Shown here in pieces: positions 9,492 to 23,420 of a stretch of DNA of 23,899 bases. Source of the stretch: a virus; the IMG/VR virus record IMGVR_UViG_3300010430_000446, positions 1 through 23,899 of that record. One strand, written 5' to 3'. Each line of letters begins with the position of its first letter. Position 1 is the first letter of the stretch. The translations under genes were made by a program, and so were the position numbers. The notes beneath the pieces were generated by a model that was given only the letters and a program-made list of their open reading frames with translations, was not told the origin of the DNA and did not search any database.

Positions 9492-10232
9492 ATGAGAAAA
9501 GTCGTATTAAAGATGACTACGCAGAAAGATTTGATTGAACATCAGTCTGAAGCAAGAACATTTGGTGAATTGAAGAAGGAACTGAAGCAGGTCAAGTGGT
9601 CTGGAATGAGGGTAGTAGAGAGAGCATCTAAAGCAACCCTTCAGATGGATGATGCAATACTCCCACAAGGAGAATTTCTCCTGTTTCTTGTCCCTGAGAA
9701 GGTCAAGAGTGGTAGAAAAACTTCCGGTGGAACCGAAGAGTTGAGTAAACCTATCGAAGAGTGTTCCTACAATGAGTGTAGGAGTCACATGAGCTGGTTG
9801 AACAGGAACAAGGATGCAAATCTGAATATGTCCGGTGGTACTGCTGATCTTCAGGCTCAACTGAAGAAGTACTACAAAAAGGAGGGTGGTCAGACATCTG
9901 CTACCAAGAAAGTAGCTCCTAAAGCAGCTAAGAAGCCTGAGAAGAAAACTCCTTCTGAGAAGAATGTTAAGAAGGCAAAGAAAGCGAAGAAGAAAGGTCT
10001 CTTTGGAAAGAAAGAGAAAGCTGCTCCTGTACCAACCGATCCTATCGAGATCATTGAAGCATCTCGTGACCAGATCAACAAGGCTGTTGATCAAATCGTA
10101 CTGGATATGATTGAGAATGGTGGTACTGTACCTGCTGTCCTTCAGTTCACTGCGGACGATCTTGACAAAGAAATCAAGAAAGTTCAAAGTGCTCTGAGAA
10201 CCAGTAGAAGTCAGGCAGTTTATATTCCATAA
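9492..10232 (+). CDS. Protein with N-terminal ubiquitin-like (beta-grasp) domain, Gly-Gly motifs and Lys-rich linker, 246 aa
   Basis: Residues 1-70 follow the order expected of a beta-grasp fold: strand KVVLKM, helix TFGELKKELKQV, strand MRVVERASKATL, then the DDAILP turn and strand EFLLFLVP. That pattern resembles ubiquitin-like and PRTRC-type proteins. A Gly-Gly pair follows at 79-80 (SGRKTSGG), with two more at 115-116 (NMSGG) and 132-133 (KKEGG). Residues 134-180 form a Lys/Ala/Pro-rich linker, and 182-246 a helical domain. In ubiquitin the mature end is Gly75-Gly76, so a pro-form cleaved after G80 is plausible. E2-like, JAMM and E1 genes follow on the same strand, which strongly supports this reading. 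M8 is an alternative start but would remove strand 1. The fold call is pattern-based. Confidence 0.7.
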   Translation: MRKVVLKMTTQKDLIEHQSEARTFGELKKELKQVKWSGMRVVERASKATLQMDDAILPQGEFLLFLVPEKVKSGRKTSGGTEELSKPIEECSYNECRSHMSWLNRNKDANLNMSGGTADLQAQLKKYYKKEGGQTSATKKVAPKAAKKPEKKTPSEKNVKKAKKAKKKGLFGKKEKAAPVPTDPIEIIEASRDQINKAVDQIVLDMIENGGTVPAVLQFTADDLDKEIKKVQSALRTSRSQAVYIP

Positions 10233-10307: not shown

Positions 10308-12356
10308 ATGAATGAAGAAATGGCAAATCCGTTTACACATATTGATCCTGATAATCCACCACCAGAACCAACTCAAGAATATCCGAGTCATATGGTTGAG
10401 GAAACAGATGAAGAAGAAATAACTGATCATCAAGCTGTTGCTGATGTACTTAGTAATGGAGAAACTTATGAAGGTCTTACTTTAGATAGTCTGAGAGAAA
10501 CTGTAAATGAGGTTTTGGAAGAAGAGGAAGCTCAACCTCGTGCGATAAGGATAAATACGGCAGATATTCCAGTAGGAATGACCGCAGAAGAGTATATAAG
10601 GCATTATCAACAGACCGGAACTCTTACCACGAACGCTACCTCTACAACCTATACAGGTACTAACATTTCTACTGATGCAACTGATGCAGCAGCACCTACT
10701 CGTCATCCTTTGGATGATCTGTTTGTAAATAAAGAGGAAAAGAAGGAACCGATTGAAGAAATACTTCCTACTCCTGAACAGATTGCACGTATCAAAGCAG
10801 AGCGTAAAGAATATCACGCTGATCAGCTTAGATTCAAACGTGAGATATGTGTCAGGGACATGGTTATTACTAAAGATGATCTGATTATTACATTCCAAAA
10901 CGGAAGTCACACTTTCTATCATATTGATATAGAGGGGAGTCATCAGATGCAAAAAACAGCCAATCCTCATACTTTACGGAGAAGAAGAGGTGTCAATAAG
11001 AGCAAAAGTGTGTGTAATTCTCTCATCTTCGACAAGAATATGAATCGTTTAACTGTCTATAAAGATGGATTCGATAAGAAGAATAAGAAGAGAGATCGTA
11101 GAGATGGAACCAGAATTTACCCATCTCAAGTATATCTTGGTTCAGAAGGTGGTATTGGAGATGAACCATTCTTTGTTGTGATCAATAAAAATGCTTTTAT
11201 CAACTCCAAAGGTAGATTGTGGCAAATCAGATATAGAAGTCATGTTTCTTACCACCGTATCAAACAAGCTAAGAAAATGTACATGGGACAATTCGATGAA
11301 ATCGAACGATTCATGTCATTTATGAAGTTCAATATTGAGATGGTACATCCTGCTGAAGATTATGACATTATGTATAGTTTCGGAGGTCAAGAGCGTCATA
11401 CGGAGTCTCATTTTGATTTGCTTGTAAAATTCAACGATGTGACCATTTCTAATTCTATTGAAATGGATCATCATATCGGTGATATAATAATTAAGAGTAC
11501 AGGAAATCATTGGCTCAGTCATGGTGCAGATGAGATTCGTTCTAATGTAATGGGTTCTCTGAGTGGAACAAGATTAACGTTTACTCCCGGAGATGCAGGT
11601 AGAAGCTACCAACATTCTCACTTGACTACCAGTATGTGCAACTTTGGAGGTTTCTGTACAGGAAGTGGAAATTATAACAATGGTGATGGTTATCTGACTG
11701 AGTATTCAATTCAAGAGCATATTTTTAGATTGGATACCTATGTCAGATGGGAGTCACTTGAAGGTGGTCCTCATTACAGAATGGAGAATATCAACATTCA
11801 TGGTGGTGTACAACCTATTAGGAAACATATTATAGGAACGGACAGGGAAGTTAGAAATGTTTATGTGGAGAGGTTAATCTATGAGATTAATCAGACTCCG
11901 GAACAGTTCGGTACATTCGCACCATGCTTTACGATTATCAACCAGAAAGGGAATCTCAAGTTTGTAGCAGATTATCAAATGTTCTTTAGAAAGTTCATGG
12001 AAATTATTCCAAGCGACAAGATTAAAGAGATCACTACACAACTTAGAGAAACTGTTTATACCTATAATTCTCTGGAAGGAACTTTCCATGTAATTAACGA
12101 TATGGATTCAGTTAATCCAGCAAAGATTATCGAGAAAGCTGAACTTAAAATGATAAACTTTAATCCTATTTATATGAGTGGGAAGTATTATCGTCCTCGT
12201 TTAATTACTCGTGATGTAGGGAATCTGTTAGAAGGATTGGTATTCTCTCCTGAACCAAATATCATGAAGGAGATTGCACAACTTATTATGTATCATTTAA
12301 CAAATAAACTTGAAAAATATGGGAACACCAGCGCAGACGAAAGAGAAGAAAGCTGA
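10308..12356 (+). CDS. Large protein with candidate E2-like (UBC-like) motif, 682 aa
   Basis: ATG 10308 follows TTTTAAAACTGATAAAT. The frame is open further upstream only from a TTG. Residues 1-170 are acidic, Thr-rich and low-complexity (ETDEEE, EVLEEEEAQ), probably disordered. The rest is a mixed alpha/beta domain. The key stretch has H436-S-H438, then C444 and C450 in GGFCTGSG, followed by VRWESLEGGP. A His motif about 10-14 residues before a Cys in a Gly-rich setting is how UBC/E2-like proteins, including divergent prokaryotic ones, present their catalytic Cys. Between a Ubl gene and JAMM and E1 genes this makes it the best E2 candidate. The alternative is an unknown enzyme or scaffold. 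It overlaps the JAMM gene by 38 nt. Confidence 0.6.
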   Translation: MNEEMANPFTHIDPDNPPPEPTQEYPSHMVEETDEEEITDHQAVADVLSNGETYEGLTLDSLRETVNEVLEEEEAQPRAIRINTADIPVGMTAEEYIRHYQQTGTLTTNATSTTYTGTNISTDATDAAAPTRHPLDDLFVNKEEKKEPIEEILPTPEQIARIKAERKEYHADQLRFKREICVRDMVITKDDLIITFQNGSHTFYHIDIEGSHQMQKTANPHTLRRRRGVNKSKSVCNSLIFDKNMNRLTVYKDGFDKKNKKRDRRDGTRIYPSQVYLGSEGGIGDEPFFVVINKNAFINSKGRLWQIRYRSHVSYHRIKQAKKMYMGQFDEIERFMSFMKFNIEMVHPAEDYDIMYSFGGQERHTESHFDLLVKFNDVTISNSIEMDHHIGDIIIKSTGNHWLSHGADEIRSNVMGSLSGTRLTFTPGDAGRSYQHSHLTTSMCNFGGFCTGSGNYNNGDGYLTEYSIQEHIFRLDTYVRWESLEGGPHYRMENINIHGGVQPIRKHIIGTDREVRNVYVERLIYEINQTPEQFGTFAPCFTIINQKGNLKFVADYQMFFRKFMEIIPSDKIKEITTQLRETVYTYNSLEGTFHVINDMDSVNPAKIIEKAELKMINFNPIYMSGKYYRPRLITRDVGNLLEGLVFSPEPNIMKEIAQLIMYHLTNKLEKYGNTSADEREES

Positions 12357-13506
12357 ATATCCGATCTATACTATGGAAGATAAAGGTAAATTGATTTTAC
12401 CACCTGAAATCATATCGCAGATCACATATCTTCATTCCCATTGTGGAAGTAAAGAATGGTCAGGTCTTCTTCTATATGATGTAATTAAAGGCAATCCTTC
12501 CAAGCCTAAAGATTTTGAATTGGAAGCAAAACATATTTTCCTGATGGATATTGGAACAGCAGGGGCAACTGACTATGAAACCGATGGTGATATTGTTGAT
12601 TTGTATGATCAAATCCCGGAGGCTTTAGAGCAGAAGCTCGGACATATTCATACTCATCATAGTGGATCAGCTTATTTTTCCGGAGTCGATACAGGAGAGC
12701 TTCAGGACAACGTGGACAAGTATAACTACTATCTGTCCTTTGTAGTGAATTTCAACGGAAATTACGCTGCTAAAGTAGCTTTCCTGAGTGATATGCACAC
12801 TACATCTAAGATGAATTATCTGAATGATGCAGGTGTGATCAAGCATTTCAAACAATCGAAAGTTGAGAAGCACATGGTTATCATTGATATGAGAATTATG
12901 TATGCTGAGCTTGGTGGATTCTTTTCTGATCGTCTTGATGAGATTGTCAAGAAGAATGATGCGAAATCAAAGCACAGTGCTGCTGGTTATCAATACTCTC
13001 ATTTCCATAATCAGAATATGAATGAACTTCCACGTCATGAACTACATCACAGGCAAAGTCAGAGAGCTATTGGTTCAAAAGTCATCCCTGACAAGATGAC
13101 ATCATGGGAGATCGAAAAGCTGACAAAGAACATCTTGATGTTTGATACTGAACTGAAAACAGAGAGTAATGTATATGCTATTCTGCATCAGATTGTCAAA
13201 CAGGAAGATGCTGAGATGGACTTATTTTATGACTATCTCTTGAATCATATCGACAATGTGCTTGATGCTTACTTCGACGATGCACTTCTTGCTGATGATG
13301 AACGTGTCATTGTGATCAAGGAAGTTTTGATGTCAATTAAGAAGTATGAAGGACTTCCTCTTCTATCTGAACTGATTACTAATCTTGAGGAGACATTTGA
13401 ACATTTTATGCTTGGTTATGAAGTGATCAGAGAACCTGAAGAGAATCAGTCTGAGAATAGTATTGCTAATCAACTTGCAAGAGCAGAAAGGGAACTCCAT
13501 GATTGA
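12319..13506 (+). CDS. JAMM/MPN-family metallopeptidase (JAB domain), 395 aa
   Basis: The zinc isopeptidase signature is intact: E46 in KEWSG, then H111-T-H113, seven residues, S121-G-V-D124. This is the E...HxH(x7)SxxD JAMM motif of deubiquitinases such as Rpn11 and of prokaryotic JAB proteins. The MPN domain occupies about residues 20-170. A 220-residue extension follows, with a His-rich stretch (HFHNQ, HELHHRQ) around 230-250 and a helical, acidic end. It should cleave the peptide or isopeptide bond after a Ubl Gly-Gly, either maturing the Ubl or removing it from targets. Start ATG 12319 is preferred over an upstream TTG. It overlaps the E2-like gene by 38 nt and the E1 gene by 8 nt. Confidence 0.9.
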   Translation: MGTPAQTKEKKAEYPIYTMEDKGKLILPPEIISQITYLHSHCGSKEWSGLLLYDVIKGNPSKPKDFELEAKHIFLMDIGTAGATDYETDGDIVDLYDQIPEALEQKLGHIHTHHSGSAYFSGVDTGELQDNVDKYNYYLSFVVNFNGNYAAKVAFLSDMHTTSKMNYLNDAGVIKHFKQSKVEKHMVIIDMRIMYAELGGFFSDRLDEIVKKNDAKSKHSAAGYQYSHFHNQNMNELPRHELHHRQSQRAIGSKVIPDKMTSWEIEKLTKNILMFDTELKTESNVYAILHQIVKQEDAEMDLFYDYLLNHIDNVLDAYFDDALLADDERVIVIKEVLMSIKKYEGLPLLSELITNLEETFEHFMLGYEVIREPEENQSENSIANQLARAERELHD

Positions 13507-14182
13507 TGTAAAGAAGTCAAGATTCCGTGATGCTTCATGGTTTGAGAAAGTCGATAAGTTCGTTATTCCTATCATTATCGGAGGTGCAGGAGGGATTGGT
13601 AGTTGGCTGACATTATTTCTGTCAAGGATGCTACCACCTACCTCATACATTATCCTATACGATTTCGACACAGTAGAAGAAGTCAATATGGCTGGACAAC
13701 TGTTTAGAACTCAGGATATTGGTAAGCTGAAAGTCACTGCTATCAAAGAGATAGTAAAAGACTTCAGTGGATATGAGAGGATTACAGTACAACCTGATCG
13801 GTATGATCCGGAAGCTCTCAGAAGTCCCGTTATGTTCTCATGTTTTGATAATATGGTAGCACGAAAGGATATGTTTGAGAACTGGTTACAAGAAGCAGAA
13901 AAGTATCCGGATTCCATCTTTATTGATGGAAGACTGAACGCAGAACAATTTCAGGTATTTTATGTAACGCTTGAAAATGCTTTACAATACAAAAATAAAT
14001 ACCTGTTTAGTGATGATGAAGTCGATGATACGAACTGCTCTTATAAGCAGACTACGCACTTTGCAGCAGCGATTGCAGCGAAAATGGTACAAGGGTTTAC
14101 TGGATTCTTGGACCCCTCCTACGAGCTTCCATTCAAGTATGAGGAAATCGGACCGTTATTCTTTAATGAAACTGAACCATGA
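13499..14182 (+). CDS. E1/ThiF-family adenylating enzyme, 227 aa
   Basis: The nucleotide-binding core of E1-like enzymes is clear: GG29-AGGIG34 loop, strand YD55-F-D57, then VN63...R70...D73-I-GK76 (the NxxRQ...diGK pattern), and C115-FDN in the second half. These enzymes adenylate the C-terminal Gly of a Ubl using ATP. C180 in DTNC-SYKQTTH is a candidate catalytic Cys for a thioester. No ThiF/MoeB-type zinc CxxC pairs are seen. At 227 residues it is a minimal E1 without a fused C-terminal domain. ATG 13499 overlaps the JAMM stop, and the stop overlaps the next ATG (ATGA), so the three genes are translationally coupled. Confidence 0.88.
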   Translation: MIDVKKSRFRDASWFEKVDKFVIPIIIGGAGGIGSWLTLFLSRMLPPTSYIILYDFDTVEEVNMAGQLFRTQDIGKLKVTAIKEIVKDFSGYERITVQPDRYDPEALRSPVMFSCFDNMVARKDMFENWLQEAEKYPDSIFIDGRLNAEQFQVFYVTLENALQYKNKYLFSDDEVDDTNCSYKQTTHFAAAIAAKMVQGFTGFLDPSYELPFKYEEIGPLFFNETEP

Positions 14183-20822: not shown

Positions 20823-21170
20823 ATGGCGGAAGAAGTCGAATTACAAGTAGGTGCGTTCAAAGAATCTTTGTATCGCAATAACAGTAAAATCCGTAAGGAT
20901 CGTGCTGATAGCATAATCGAAGATGCTGAACTCATTTACAAACGTGAGATCGAAGACCTCGAAGTTCAAATGAAAAAGATGCAGAGAGAGCAAGAGAATA
21001 TGCTTGACCTGTCTCCAACCAATGCAATGAATCTTACTCTTGCAAGTGACTTTGATTCAAAAGTTTATGTAGATAAGGACATTGAACTTGGAGTAAAAAT
21101 CCGGAATGTTGAGATCAAACTTGACATTGCACGTAAGCGTTATGCTTACTTATTTGGAGGAACCGAATAA
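20823..21170 (+). CDS. Small helical coiled-coil protein, 115 aa
   Basis: ATG 20823 is preceded by AAACCTTAAAAACAAAAAA, and MAEEVELQVGAF is a natural start; reading from an upstream TTG is unlikely. The protein is mostly charged helix, with a likely coiled coil through IEDLEVQMKKMQREQENM, a short loop (LSPTNAMN), and another helix with KVYVDKDIELGVKIR and DIARKRYAYL. No enzymatic motif is seen. Its stop overlaps the start of the von Willebrand factor A gene by one base, so the two are co-expressed. Confidence 0.7.
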   Translation: MAEEVELQVGAFKESLYRNNSKIRKDRADSIIEDAELIYKREIEDLEVQMKKMQREQENMLDLSPTNAMNLTLASDFDSKVYVDKDIELGVKIRNVEIKLDIARKRYAYLFGGTE

Positions 21171-22039
21171 TGGGAGGCGGTAGTTATAGTTCAATGGATC
21201 GTGGTGTACGCCATATGGCAATGGGAACAGCCATGAAATCCAATGCAGAGAACTTCAAAAGCAAGTCTGTAACTCGTGAGATGACTACAGTTGGTCTGGA
21301 TTTTCGGGAATCAAGAGATTCTGACGAACATCCTAAATCTGTTGCAATCATTGTAGCACTTGATGTTACAGGTTCAATGGGATCAGTACCAGAACATTTG
21401 GTCAAACACGGTCTGCCTCACATGATGGATTCAATCATCAAAGCTGGTAATCCTGATCCACAGGTTCTCTTCATGGAAATCGGTGATCATGAGTGGGATC
21501 GTAGTCCACTTCAGGTAGGTCAATTCGAGAGTTCTGATGAGCTTTTGGACAAATGGTTAATGGATACCTACCTTGAGGGTGGTGGAGGTGGTAATGACGG
21601 TGAAAGCTATATGTTAGCGTGGTATTTCGCTGCTCGTCACACCAAGATCGACTGTCATGAGAAGAGGAAAGAAAAAGGTTTTCTGTTTACTATTGGTGAC
21701 GAACATAATCTACCCTCTGTTTCCAGTGCTGCTCTCAAGAAAATCATGGGAGAAGGTCAGGATGGTGGAGAGATAAAGTCTTCCGACTTGCTTGAAGAAG
21801 CAAGGAAGTTGTATCATGTGTACCATATCCACACTACTGAAACCTATTCCGGAAAGAGAGAAGTCGTTCCGCAAAGATGGAAGCAACTCATGGGTGATAA
21901 TCTGATTATTGTCCAGAGTAGTGATCATATCAGTGGTATCATTGCTGATATTGTATCCAAGAATGGTGTAGAGGCTTCCCCTGACAAAGAAAGGGAGAGC
22001 GAGACACCTGCTGATACCAAACCAGAAGAAATGCTTTAA
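21170..22039 (+). CDS. von Willebrand factor A (VWA) domain protein, 289 aa
   Basis: The MIDAS metal-site motif is visible as D65-V-T67-G-S69 in VALDVTGSMG, a DxSxS variant with Thr in the middle. A Gly/Asp loop (GGGGGNDGES, about 139-148) and strand LFTIGDEHN stand where later MIDAS residues are expected. The N-terminus is Gly/Ser/Met-rich (MGGGSYSSMDR). The acidic tail (KERESETPADTKPEEM) is probably disordered. VWA domains bind partner proteins through a divalent metal and often work with AAA+ ATPases, but no MoxR-type partner is visible here. No signal peptide or membrane segment is present, so it is likely cytoplasmic or part of the virion. Confidence 0.8.
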   Translation: MGGGSYSSMDRGVRHMAMGTAMKSNAENFKSKSVTREMTTVGLDFRESRDSDEHPKSVAIIVALDVTGSMGSVPEHLVKHGLPHMMDSIIKAGNPDPQVLFMEIGDHEWDRSPLQVGQFESSDELLDKWLMDTYLEGGGGGNDGESYMLAWYFAARHTKIDCHEKRKEKGFLFTIGDEHNLPSVSSAALKKIMGEGQDGGEIKSSDLLEEARKLYHVYHIHTTETYSGKREVVPQRWKQLMGDNLIIVQSSDHISGIIADIVSKNGVEASPDKERESETPADTKPEEML

Positions 22040-22041
22040 CT

Positions 22042-22254
22042 ATGGGTAATCCCGGATACACTGCTGAAACTCCTAAGAGGAAGATTTCAGAAGAATTTAT
22101 TGCGTGGTTAAACTCAGTTGAATTTGTCAATAACAATGAAGCAGTAGTTACAATGAGAGAAATCTTAGCTGAAGCTACACTTCGTCTAAACGATCTTCTT
22201 GTTGAAGAGGCTAAAGACATTGACAAAGCTGAAGCTGAAGGGTCTGCACCTTGA
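22042..22254 (+). CDS. Small unknown acidic helical protein, 70 aa
   Basis: ATG 22042 lies two bases after the VWA stop. After a short polar start (GNPGYTAETPKRKISEEF) the protein is predicted helical and acidic (TMREILAEATLRLNDLLVEE, then AKDIDKAEAEG). No motif, Cys or membrane segment is seen. Its spacing suggests co-translation with the VWA gene upstream and the purine enzyme downstream. Function unknown. Confidence 0.65.
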   Translation: MGNPGYTAETPKRKISEEFIAWLNSVEFVNNNEAVVTMREILAEATLRLNDLLVEEAKDIDKAEAEGSAP

Positions 22255-22265
22255 AGCCTCGTGAC

Positions 22266-23420
22266 ATGAGACACGCAGTAATCGGACTTGGATTTGGAGA
22301 TGAGGGGAAAGGTATGGTAACATCATACCTTTCTTCTTATTATAACAATCCAATGGTTGTCAGATACTCTGGTGGACATCAAGCAGGTCACACCGTAAAC
22401 CATAATGGAATCAAACATACGTTTGCGAATTTTGGAAGCGGAACTCTGCAAGGATGTCCTACTTACTGGTCGAAATACTGTACTGTTGAACCTATAGGTT
22501 TATTACGTGAACTTGCCCTATTAGTGGATGAAATGGGTGAATCAGTACATGAATTGAGAATTTATATTCAGGATGAATGTCCTGTAACTACACCTTTTGA
22601 CATATTTCATAATCAAAAGTTAGAAGTTGAGAAGATGTTCGGAACGTGTGGAGTTGGATTTGGTGATACTCTTGAAAGAGAGGAAGATCATTTTCATCTT
22701 CAATTCTCAGACCTGTTTAATCCTACTATATTGAAGATCAAACTTGAGATGATCCGTAAATATTATGGTCTCTTTCATGTCCTCAAAGACCTTGACATGA
22801 AGCCTTTCATGGAAGCTGTAGACATACTCAATAATAGAGCGATGTTTCCAGCAGATGTTATCGTTCGTGTAGACAGTACTGATATTCCAAGTCATCCAAA
22901 TACTATCTATGAAGGTAGTCAAGGTCTCTTGCTGGATCAGGATATTGGATTCTTTCCTCATGTAACACGTAGTAACGTGGGACGTAAGCGTTTAGATCAG
23001 TTTATCTATCATTACGATGAAGTATGGTACGTAACTCGTGCCTATCAGACTCGTCATGGTCATGGACCGATGACAAATGAGGAGCATCCTTTAATGTTGA
23101 TGAATAACAAAGGTGAATCAAATGTTGAGAATAAATATCAAGGTAAATTCCGAACAGCCATTCTTGATCTTGATCTTTTAAATTATGCTTTAGAACATGA
23201 TCAAAGGAGAGTTCGGAATGTCCAGAATAAGTATCTGGTTATCACTTGTTTAGATCAGATGATTCATTGGAGATTCACTCAGGAAGGTAATGTATTTCAG
23301 ATGGAAACTGAAGAAGAGTTTATCACAAATGTTGTAAGCGGTTTGAATTTTAAAGGAATGGTGTACCTTAGCCGATCCGATAAATCTGAACTTGAACAAT
23401 GGAAAGGAGGTGACAAATGA
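22266..23420 (+). CDS. Adenylosuccinate synthetase-like enzyme (PurA/PurZ superfamily), 384 aa
   Basis: PurA joins IMP and aspartate using GTP on the path to AMP; phage PurZ relatives act on dGMP on the path to 2-aminoadenine DNA. Family motifs present are G11-D12-EGKG16, Q39-A-G-H42-T (usually NAGHT), G126-T127-C-G, E217-GS-Q219-G, FFPHVTRSNVG, and TRAYQTRHGHGP. The catalytic Asp of GDEGKG is kept, as in PurA; canonical PurZ has Ser there. The aspartate-binding loop TTGR is replaced by YQGK (291-294), and the guanine-site TKLD reads TCLD330. It is shorter than E. coli PurA (432 aa). ATG 22266 is preferred over an upstream TTG. Substrate is undecided between IMP and a deoxyguanylate. Confidence 0.85.
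   Translation: MRHAVIGLGFGDEGKGMVTSYLSSYYNNPMVVRYSGGHQAGHTVNHNGIKHTFANFGSGTLQGCPTYWSKYCTVEPIGLLRELALLVDEMGESVHELRIYIQDECPVTTPFDIFHNQKLEVEKMFGTCGVGFGDTLEREEDHFHLQFSDLFNPTILKIKLEMIRKYYGLFHVLKDLDMKPFMEAVDILNNRAMFPADVIVRVDSTDIPSHPNTIYEGSQGLLLDQDIGFFPHVTRSNVGRKRLDQFIYHYDEVWYVTRAYQTRHGHGPMTNEEHPLMLMNNKGESNVENKYQGKFRTAILDLDLLNYALEHDQRRVRNVQNKYLVITCLDQMIHWRFTQEGNVFQMETEEEFITNVVSGLNFKGMVYLSRSDKSELEQWKGGDK
23403..23413 (+). promoter_or_regulatory. Full Shine-Dalgarno sequence before the HNH gene
   Basis: AAAGGAGGTGA lies 3 bases before the ATG at 23417 and is complementary to the 3' end of 16S rRNA over most of its length. It falls inside the last codons of the adenylosuccinate-synthetase-like gene. 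Almost no other start here has such a site, so either this gene has a different origin or the match is a by-product of coding Lys-Gly-Gly-Asp. Confidence 0.5.

Follow-up and report, generated by a model that had tools for sequence, protein, structure and literature searches.

A candidate ubiquitin-like precursor with a single conserved glycine, encoded beside E2-like, JAMM and E1 genes in crAss-like phages

Bacterial ubiquitin-like conjugation is mainly known as a form of anti-phage defence. In the BilABCD system (PMC11354881), the JAMM peptidase BilC exposes the C-terminal glycine of the ubiquitin-like protein (Ubl) BilA. BilA is built from two Ubl domains in tandem, while BilD contains an inactive and an active adenylation domain plus a Cys domain. 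Iyer et al. (2006) describe, in the text of their study (PMC1779556), operons (row 6d) in which a small Ubl, an E2-like protein, a JAB and an E1 are each encoded by a gene of their own. The C-terminal Gly of the Ubl and a Cys of the E2-like protein are conserved, and these E2-like proteins are without the usual His but carry one further downstream. The same text (PMC1779556) proposes that the Ubl of the lambdoid phage tail protein TAPI, which bears a C-terminal extension, is released at its last Gly by the JAB protein TAPK; these are tail genes with a Gly-rich linker, and no E1 or E2 is named nearby in that part of the study. Finally, pro-UFM1 loses a two-residue Ser-Cys tail before its activation by UBA5, a maturation carried out by cysteine proteases (PMC9638016).

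Here we analysed a window of 23,899 bases, a virus fragment with genes for PolB, a DnaB-type helicase, Sak4, primase, a RusA-type resolvase, an exonuclease and UDG, in an order that resembles that of crAss-like phages. Profile searches of the locus ORFs identified four linked genes in the order Ubl, E2-like, JAMM and E1 (Table 1). The cassette is found in crAss-like phages, including the cultured phiCrAss001 and DAC15; in phiCrAss001 it comprises gp79 (Ubl), gp78 (E2-like), gp77 (JAMM, 'metalloprotease domain') and gp76 (E1, 'thiamine biosynthesis protein, ThiF'). Like BilABCD, it has four components, a Ubl, an E2 (here a putative one), a JAMM and an E1, with a JAMM that exposes, here by prediction, the glycine of the Ubl. 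Unlike BilABCD, it is phage-borne and lies inside the replication region, its Ubl model contains one beta-grasp domain, and its E1 is single and short. It has the same set of separate Ubl, E2-like (conserved Cys), JAB and E1 genes as the row 6d operons, whereas its Ubl has a precursor tail and the His before the Cys of its E2-like protein is invariant. We take the row 6d operons to be PRTRC; the NCBIfam PRTRC models scored far under their cut-offs (PRTRC_ThiF 32.8 of 144.75 bits, PRTRC_A 10.7 of 101.8). With TAPI and TAPK the cassette shares a phage Ubl with a C-terminal extension and a proposed JAB cut at the last Gly of the Ubl, but it stands among replication genes and has a full enzyme set. 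As in the UFM1-UBA5 pair, a Gly would be exposed by removal of a tail, and UBA5 is the top PDB match of the phage E1 profile; since a metalloprotease is proposed here, this is a resemblance of working and not of membership. The parts of the cassette are of known kinds, and what distinguishes it is that the set is carried by phages, that its precursor relies on a single Gly, and that two of its families (Ubl and E2-like) are without a Pfam model. In the literature searched, which covered few subscription papers or bioRxiv preprints, the titles and abstract openings listed show neither this cassette in crAss-like phages nor any ubiquitin-like link; one joint mention of Crassvirales and ubiquitin proved incidental, and the words 'ubiquitin' and 'Ubl' are absent from the main text of the 2021 crass genome survey (PMC7886860).

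Table 1. Features of the cassette in the window (positions from the first base of the window)
Feature	Position	Strand	Basis or remark
pro-Ubl gene, 246 aa	9492..10232	+	homologues in crAss-like phages; phrog_15560
Ubiquitin-fold domain, residues 1-74, ends K-V-K-S-G74	9492..9713	+	AlphaFold2, Foldseek, VIA-align, conservation
Gly74 codon; predicted JAMM cut directly 3' of the codon	9711..9713	+	homologue conservation
Gly79-Gly80, first site of the original prediction; disordered linker, non-conserved	9726..9731	+	7/90; pLDDT < 50
Gly115-Gly116	9834..9839	+	ORF translation
Gly132-Gly133	9885..9890	+	ORF translation
Tail helix-loop-helix (helices 93-106, 117-132), contains Gly115-Gly116	9768..9887	+	model; without Pfam family over cut-off
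Lys-rich disordered part and C-terminal helical hairpin (184-208, 221-239)	9894..10232	+	model
E2-like protein, 682 aa	10308..12356	+	invariant H438, C450, E482-S483, G486, P488 (from ATG 10308)
Motif Y-x-H-S-H ... F-C-x-G within the E2-like protein	11607..11663	+	homologue alignment
JAMM metallopeptidase (HTHHSGSAYFSGVD)	12319..13506	+	weak Prok-JAB match; DAC15 homologue over cut-off
JAMM motif H-x-H-x7-S-x2-D	12649..12690	+	window residues
E1/ThiF-family adenylating enzyme	13499..14182	+	PF00899; invariant Cys codon 14036-14038; start chosen from relatives
Gene directly 3' of E1, 258 aa	14179..14955	+	same place as crAss001 gp75

The distribution of the cassette was followed with both the Ubl and the E1. 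A tblastn search with the Ubl matched Flavobacterium phages and, weakly, crAss-like phages, and at E <= 1e-3 the E1 gene was found in 78 phage records, most of them Flavobacterium and Bacteroides phages, with phiCrAss001, DAC15 and DAC17 among them. Scans of IMG/VR, which overlap in that some contigs were found by more than one, yielded 7 loci with the Ubl query, 33 with the E1 query and 80 with an E1 alignment, the latter being the best 80 of 273 relatives. Among these best 80, the Ubl gene accompanied the E1 in 75 loci, the E2-like gene in 77 and the JAMM gene in 77, and the five loci without a Ubl all lay at contig ends, as did those without a JAMM gene. Two further loci came from MAG contigs (3.7 and 12.3 kb) in a genome contig collection; a plasmid collection was negative both for the Ubl (E <= 1) and for the E1 (E <= 1e-5). 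In the available portion of the phiCrAss001 paper, no product of gp76-gp79 is named among the virion proteins (PMC6235969).

The original prediction, made from this DNA, was that the first gene encodes a Ubl precursor cleaved by the JAMM enzyme after one of three Gly-Gly pairs. Our results support the precursor and not the site. The conserved residue is a single glycine, Gly74, which is present in 90/90 unique homologues and is the only invariant column across the entire protein, followed by Pro58 and Leu57 (88), Leu27 (86) and Ser73 (83; Ala in 6 and Phe in 1 of the remaining sequences). In most homologues the domain ends in K-[VIT]-K-S-G, and in the window KVKSG places Gly74 five to six residues N-terminal to the first Gly-Gly. 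Tail sizes past Gly74 are bimodal, with 1-5 residues in 11/90 homologues (for example K, E, A, KF, NKN, TSI and NEKKH) and at least 54 in 79/90. None of the 90 ends on Gly74, so that a cut is required in every member if this residue is used; the predicted C-terminal extension, which must be removed for a Gly to be exposed, is thus borne out. Short stand-alone Ubl genes, which the original prediction had proposed to look for in related phages, do exist in these 11 cases, yet they end before any Gly-Gly and not at one. In the phage cr106_1 the frame stops at KSG-KF, an HNH endonuclease gene comes next and the tail follows in an ORF of its own, which matches residues 114-225 of gp79 (tblastn, E 5e-4). 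Tag and tail are thus tolerated as two genes, with the break close to the proposed cut. A group I intron product was considered as the source of this tail ORF and rejected, since the 1.4 kb stretch matched no Rfam family and hence no known intron.

Among close relatives the Ubl domain is under purifying selection (dN 0.08-0.21, dS 1.0-3.4 in seven comparisons), whereas L010, L014 and L017, which are more distant, show faster change in the linker. All counts refer to unique sequences (90 Ubl, 92 JAMM, 89 E2-like and 85 E1) after exact duplicates had been merged, the Ubl set deriving from 123 matches; those for JAMM, E1 and E2-like exclude L039-L043, L052 and ORFs cut by a contig end, with size floors of 300, 200 and 280 aa, respectively.

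We consider it probable that the gene encodes a Ubl precursor matured after Gly74 by the JAMM of the cassette, within a ubiquitin-like conjugation system encoded by the phage. What the analysis shows is conservation, the predicted fold, an intact JAMM motif, gene linkage and natural short and split forms; from these we infer the cleavage, the enzyme responsible for it, the conjugation and its targets. A JAMM gene with an intact motif and an adjacent E1 were found close to the Ubl gene, as had been predicted. The motif HxHx7SxxD was conserved in 90/92 homologues, the two exceptions being split genes, and E-W-[SC]-G in 85/92. The window protein scored 14.6 bits against Pfam Prok-JAB, under the cut-off of 25, and its DAC15 homologue 25.8. 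Alternatively, the JAMM could serve solely to remove the tag from targets, with a host protease or another phage protease maturing the precursor. This agrees with eukaryotic JAMM enzymes, which usually act in tag removal. We regard it as unlikely, given that 77 of the 80 cassettes (best 80 of 273 relatives) have the JAMM gene and the rest lie at contig ends, that the lack of any member ending on Gly would call for a dedicated maturase everywhere, and that BilC offers a JAMM precedent for maturation. Maturation and tag removal by the JAMM are in any case not mutually exclusive.

Separately, the JAMM gene was found in two ORFs at four loci (L001 11008-13300, L026 6633-8948, L102 3287-5567 and L109 3807-5549). 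Flavobacterium phage Fpv1 is among the phages with a split JAMM gene, and the JAMM of the related locus L069 is whole.

To predict the structures we used folding sets of 74 Ubl and 72 E2-like sequences, from which rows from annotated records were excluded; four of 75 listed loci were left out of each, and L007 and L009 were added to the Ubl set. AlphaFold2 gave pLDDT block means of 93-97 for Ubl residues 1-70, with strands at 2-8, 14-19, 39-43 and 62-68 and a helix at 24-30, and disorder (pLDDT < 50) at residues 75-80. The N-terminal beta-grasp domain of the original prediction is therefore present in the model, residues 1-74 of which adopt a ubiquitin fold. Foldseek matched it with probability 1.00 to ubiquitin, NEDD8, DIX and others, at E-values no better than 1e-3 overall; the single-domain ubiquitin and NEDD8 rows had a target-normalised TM of about 0.55-0.69 and a best E of 4e-3. 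VIA-align of residues 1-74 gave Z 7.7-9.4 and rmsd 1.7-3.6 over 65-71 aligned residues. In 6nyo_E and 7wfc_B the last aligned model residue was 74, opposite ubiquitin Gly76, and in the linear dimer 3b0a_D it was again 74, opposite residue 152, that is, the place of a ubiquitin Gly76. At the level of families, Pfam Ubl models found no convincing match among the 74 Ubl homologues, and profiles built from the Ubl and E2-like alignments found no relevant PDB chain at E <= 10. Against a viral library, Foldseek recovered Ubls from other crass-like phages, along with weak matches to giant-virus proteins that are ubiquitin-like. The helix-loop-helix of the tail recalls, in our judgement, the SAP/HeH DNA-binding motif; this identity was discarded because none of 8 fragments matched SAP in Pfam.

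These structural matches bear on a second alternative, in which the Ubl is never conjugated but is a built-in ubiquitin-like domain that recruits the E1, the E2-like protein and the JAMM, or docks replication proteins, Gly74 being structural. DIX, FERM and UBX are ubiquitin folds that are not known to be conjugated. In the VIA-align ranking they score as well as or above ubiquitin, and molybdopterin synthase structures are also present; since several top matches are thus folds of this sort, the fold alone does not make the Ubl a modifier. The long tail kept in 79/90 homologues would fit a built-in domain too. Nevertheless, we find this reading quite unlikely, because 11/90 homologues end 1-5 residues past Gly74, the linked E1 keeps its adenylation residues and Cys invariant in 85/85, and no structural need for Gly74 is apparent in a model where residues 75-80 are disordered.

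The second gene of the cassette likely encodes an E2, as judged from its sequence and predicted model. Its Ser-His, Cys-x-Gly and E-S-x2-G-x-P motifs are invariant in 89/89 homologues (counted from TTG 10278, that is, +10 relative to numbering from ATG 10308), so that the hallmark of an E2, a candidate active-site Cys with a preceding His motif, is kept throughout. In the model, whose mean pLDDT is 88.6, a helix is followed by a meander of four strands, the His...Cys loop and another helix, in a UBC-like order. By fold score the E2 assignment is weak: most of the 50 VIA-align rows were E2, UEV or Cap2 chains, at Z 3.3-4.8, which possibly reflects just a common arrangement; Foldseek with the 502-residue model found nothing at E <= 0.001, its top listed matches being unrelated; and Pfam and NCBIfam searches of the 72 members gave only scattered single-member matches. 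Our assignment is of the same kind as that of Iyer et al., who argued for bacterial E2s from a conserved His and Cys plus predicted strands (PMC1779556).

The E1 belongs to PF00899 (49 bits, cut-off 28.1) and consists of a single ThiF domain; the window protein and those of the nearest relatives measure 229-239 aa. Residues D67, D69, N75, Q79, K90, D129 and R134 (numbered from TTG 13463), which we take to be the adenylation residues, are each conserved in 85/85 homologues, as is C192, a candidate thioester Cys. The best PDB match of its profile, UBA5 (the E1 of UFM1), was found at E 2e-14 in an alignment that stops before C192. Public crass-like records, among them L044 (6575-7726), label this E1 'thiamine biosynthesis protein ThiF'. 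Taken at its word, this annotation would make the Ubl a ThiS- or MoaD-like sulfur carrier, thiocarboxylated at Gly74, a reading with which the ThiF matches of the E1 and the molybdopterin synthase structures in the fold list of the Ubl agree. We consider it very improbable, since the linkage of the E1 to the cassette argues against a thiamine role: neither the 18 genes annotated in the crAss001 stretch nor the other crass-like gene lists examined include a rhodanese, a sulfurtransferase or any other thiamine or molybdopterin gene, the neighbours being instead primase, RusA-type resolvase, exonuclease and UDG, and an E2-like gene with an invariant Cys is found wherever the contig reaches it. 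As for the gene that follows the E1, four profile rounds joined 45/85 unique downstream ORFs and did not join the window gene to crAss001 gp75.

The Gly-Gly pairs at 79-80, 115-116 and 132-133 are present in the translation of ORF 9492-10232, with 166 and 113 residues past the first and the third, as claimed, and there is a fourth, previously unlisted, at 210-211. The protein holds 14 Gly in 246 residues, and its four pairs compare with a mean of 0.74 in 100,000 shuffles (P(>=4) = 0.0038), an excess that makes the original observation of Gly-Gly pairs correct. Alignment of the homologues, however, shows that none of the three is conserved (7/90, 11/90 and 1/90 at their respective columns), and on these grounds the pairs were ruled out as processing site. 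Furthermore, Gly115-Gly116 immediately precedes the second helix of a confident helical pair (pLDDT block means 94-96). A JAMM cut after residue 80, 116 or 133 is hence scarcely credible, for although the pairs are commoner than composition predicts (P 0.004) and the first lies within a disordered linker, the short homologues terminate before any of them and with a cut at 80 the mature form would still carry six residues beyond the invariant Gly74.

Under the reading we favour, maturation after Gly74, the Ubl would be made as a precursor in which residues 1-74 are ubiquitin-like and end in Lys-Ser-Gly, followed by an extension whose length varies between phages from 1 to >200 residues. Most likely the JAMM, encoded two genes downstream, would cut after Gly74; the freed Ubl would then be adenylated by the adjacent E1 and passed on by the E2-like protein to target proteins, from which the JAMM may later strip it too. 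The released tail (the helix-loop-helix and the Lys-rich part) would probably form a second product that has a role of its own. Since the cassette lies among replication genes, its targets may be proteins of replication or of host take-over. With less assurance, we lean towards the broader view that crass-like phages have a complete pathway of their own (Ubl precursor, E1, E2-like and JAMM), fixed in the replication region and tagging host or phage proteins during infection, in which the cut yields a tag and a tail protein that are both useful. If true, phages themselves, including cultured relatives of abundant human gut viruses, would bear conjugation machinery, and this machinery would stand under annotations such as 'thiamine biosynthesis protein' and 'hypothetical protein'. 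The conserved K-S-G end makes the idea directly testable: after trypsin digestion, target lysines would carry a Ser-Gly remnant (+144.05 Da), and proteomic data from infected Bacteroides or Flavobacterium, whether already available or newly acquired, could be searched for it.

More distant candidates were also seen. In the Xanthomonas jumbo phage PhiXhv-16 (L052 3712-7588), a 140-aa candidate Ubl, recognised by eye and without a match to the crAss profile, ends exactly in ASGG and adjoins an E1 and a protein with an HPH...C-L-G stretch (by eye). Searches of the whole 229 kb of this phage with the JAMM profile and Prok-JAB found nothing at E <= 10, whereas the crAss001, DAC15 and L042 genomes match. 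The case represents one lineage, in 4 near-identical records. A second, diverged phage cassette occurs at L041 6079-9618, L042 6041-9606 and L043 5931-9633. It comprises an ORF of 202-236 aa that, judged by eye, begins like a beta-grasp domain, an E2-like protein with NPH...C-L-G, a JAMM motif and an E1; no KSG motif was seen in these three. Scans with the PhiXhv-16 E1 gave no locus and those with the L042-type E1 gave six. Elsewhere in the window, positions 22251-23420 hold an adenylosuccinate-synthetase-like gene (phrog_1211, E 1e-47; PurA models under cut-off, PurZ 30 of 300 bits), which could be tied to modified adenine in phage DNA, and positions 21170-22039 encode a protein (phrog_2971) with a DxTGSMG pattern, presumably as in vWA domains.
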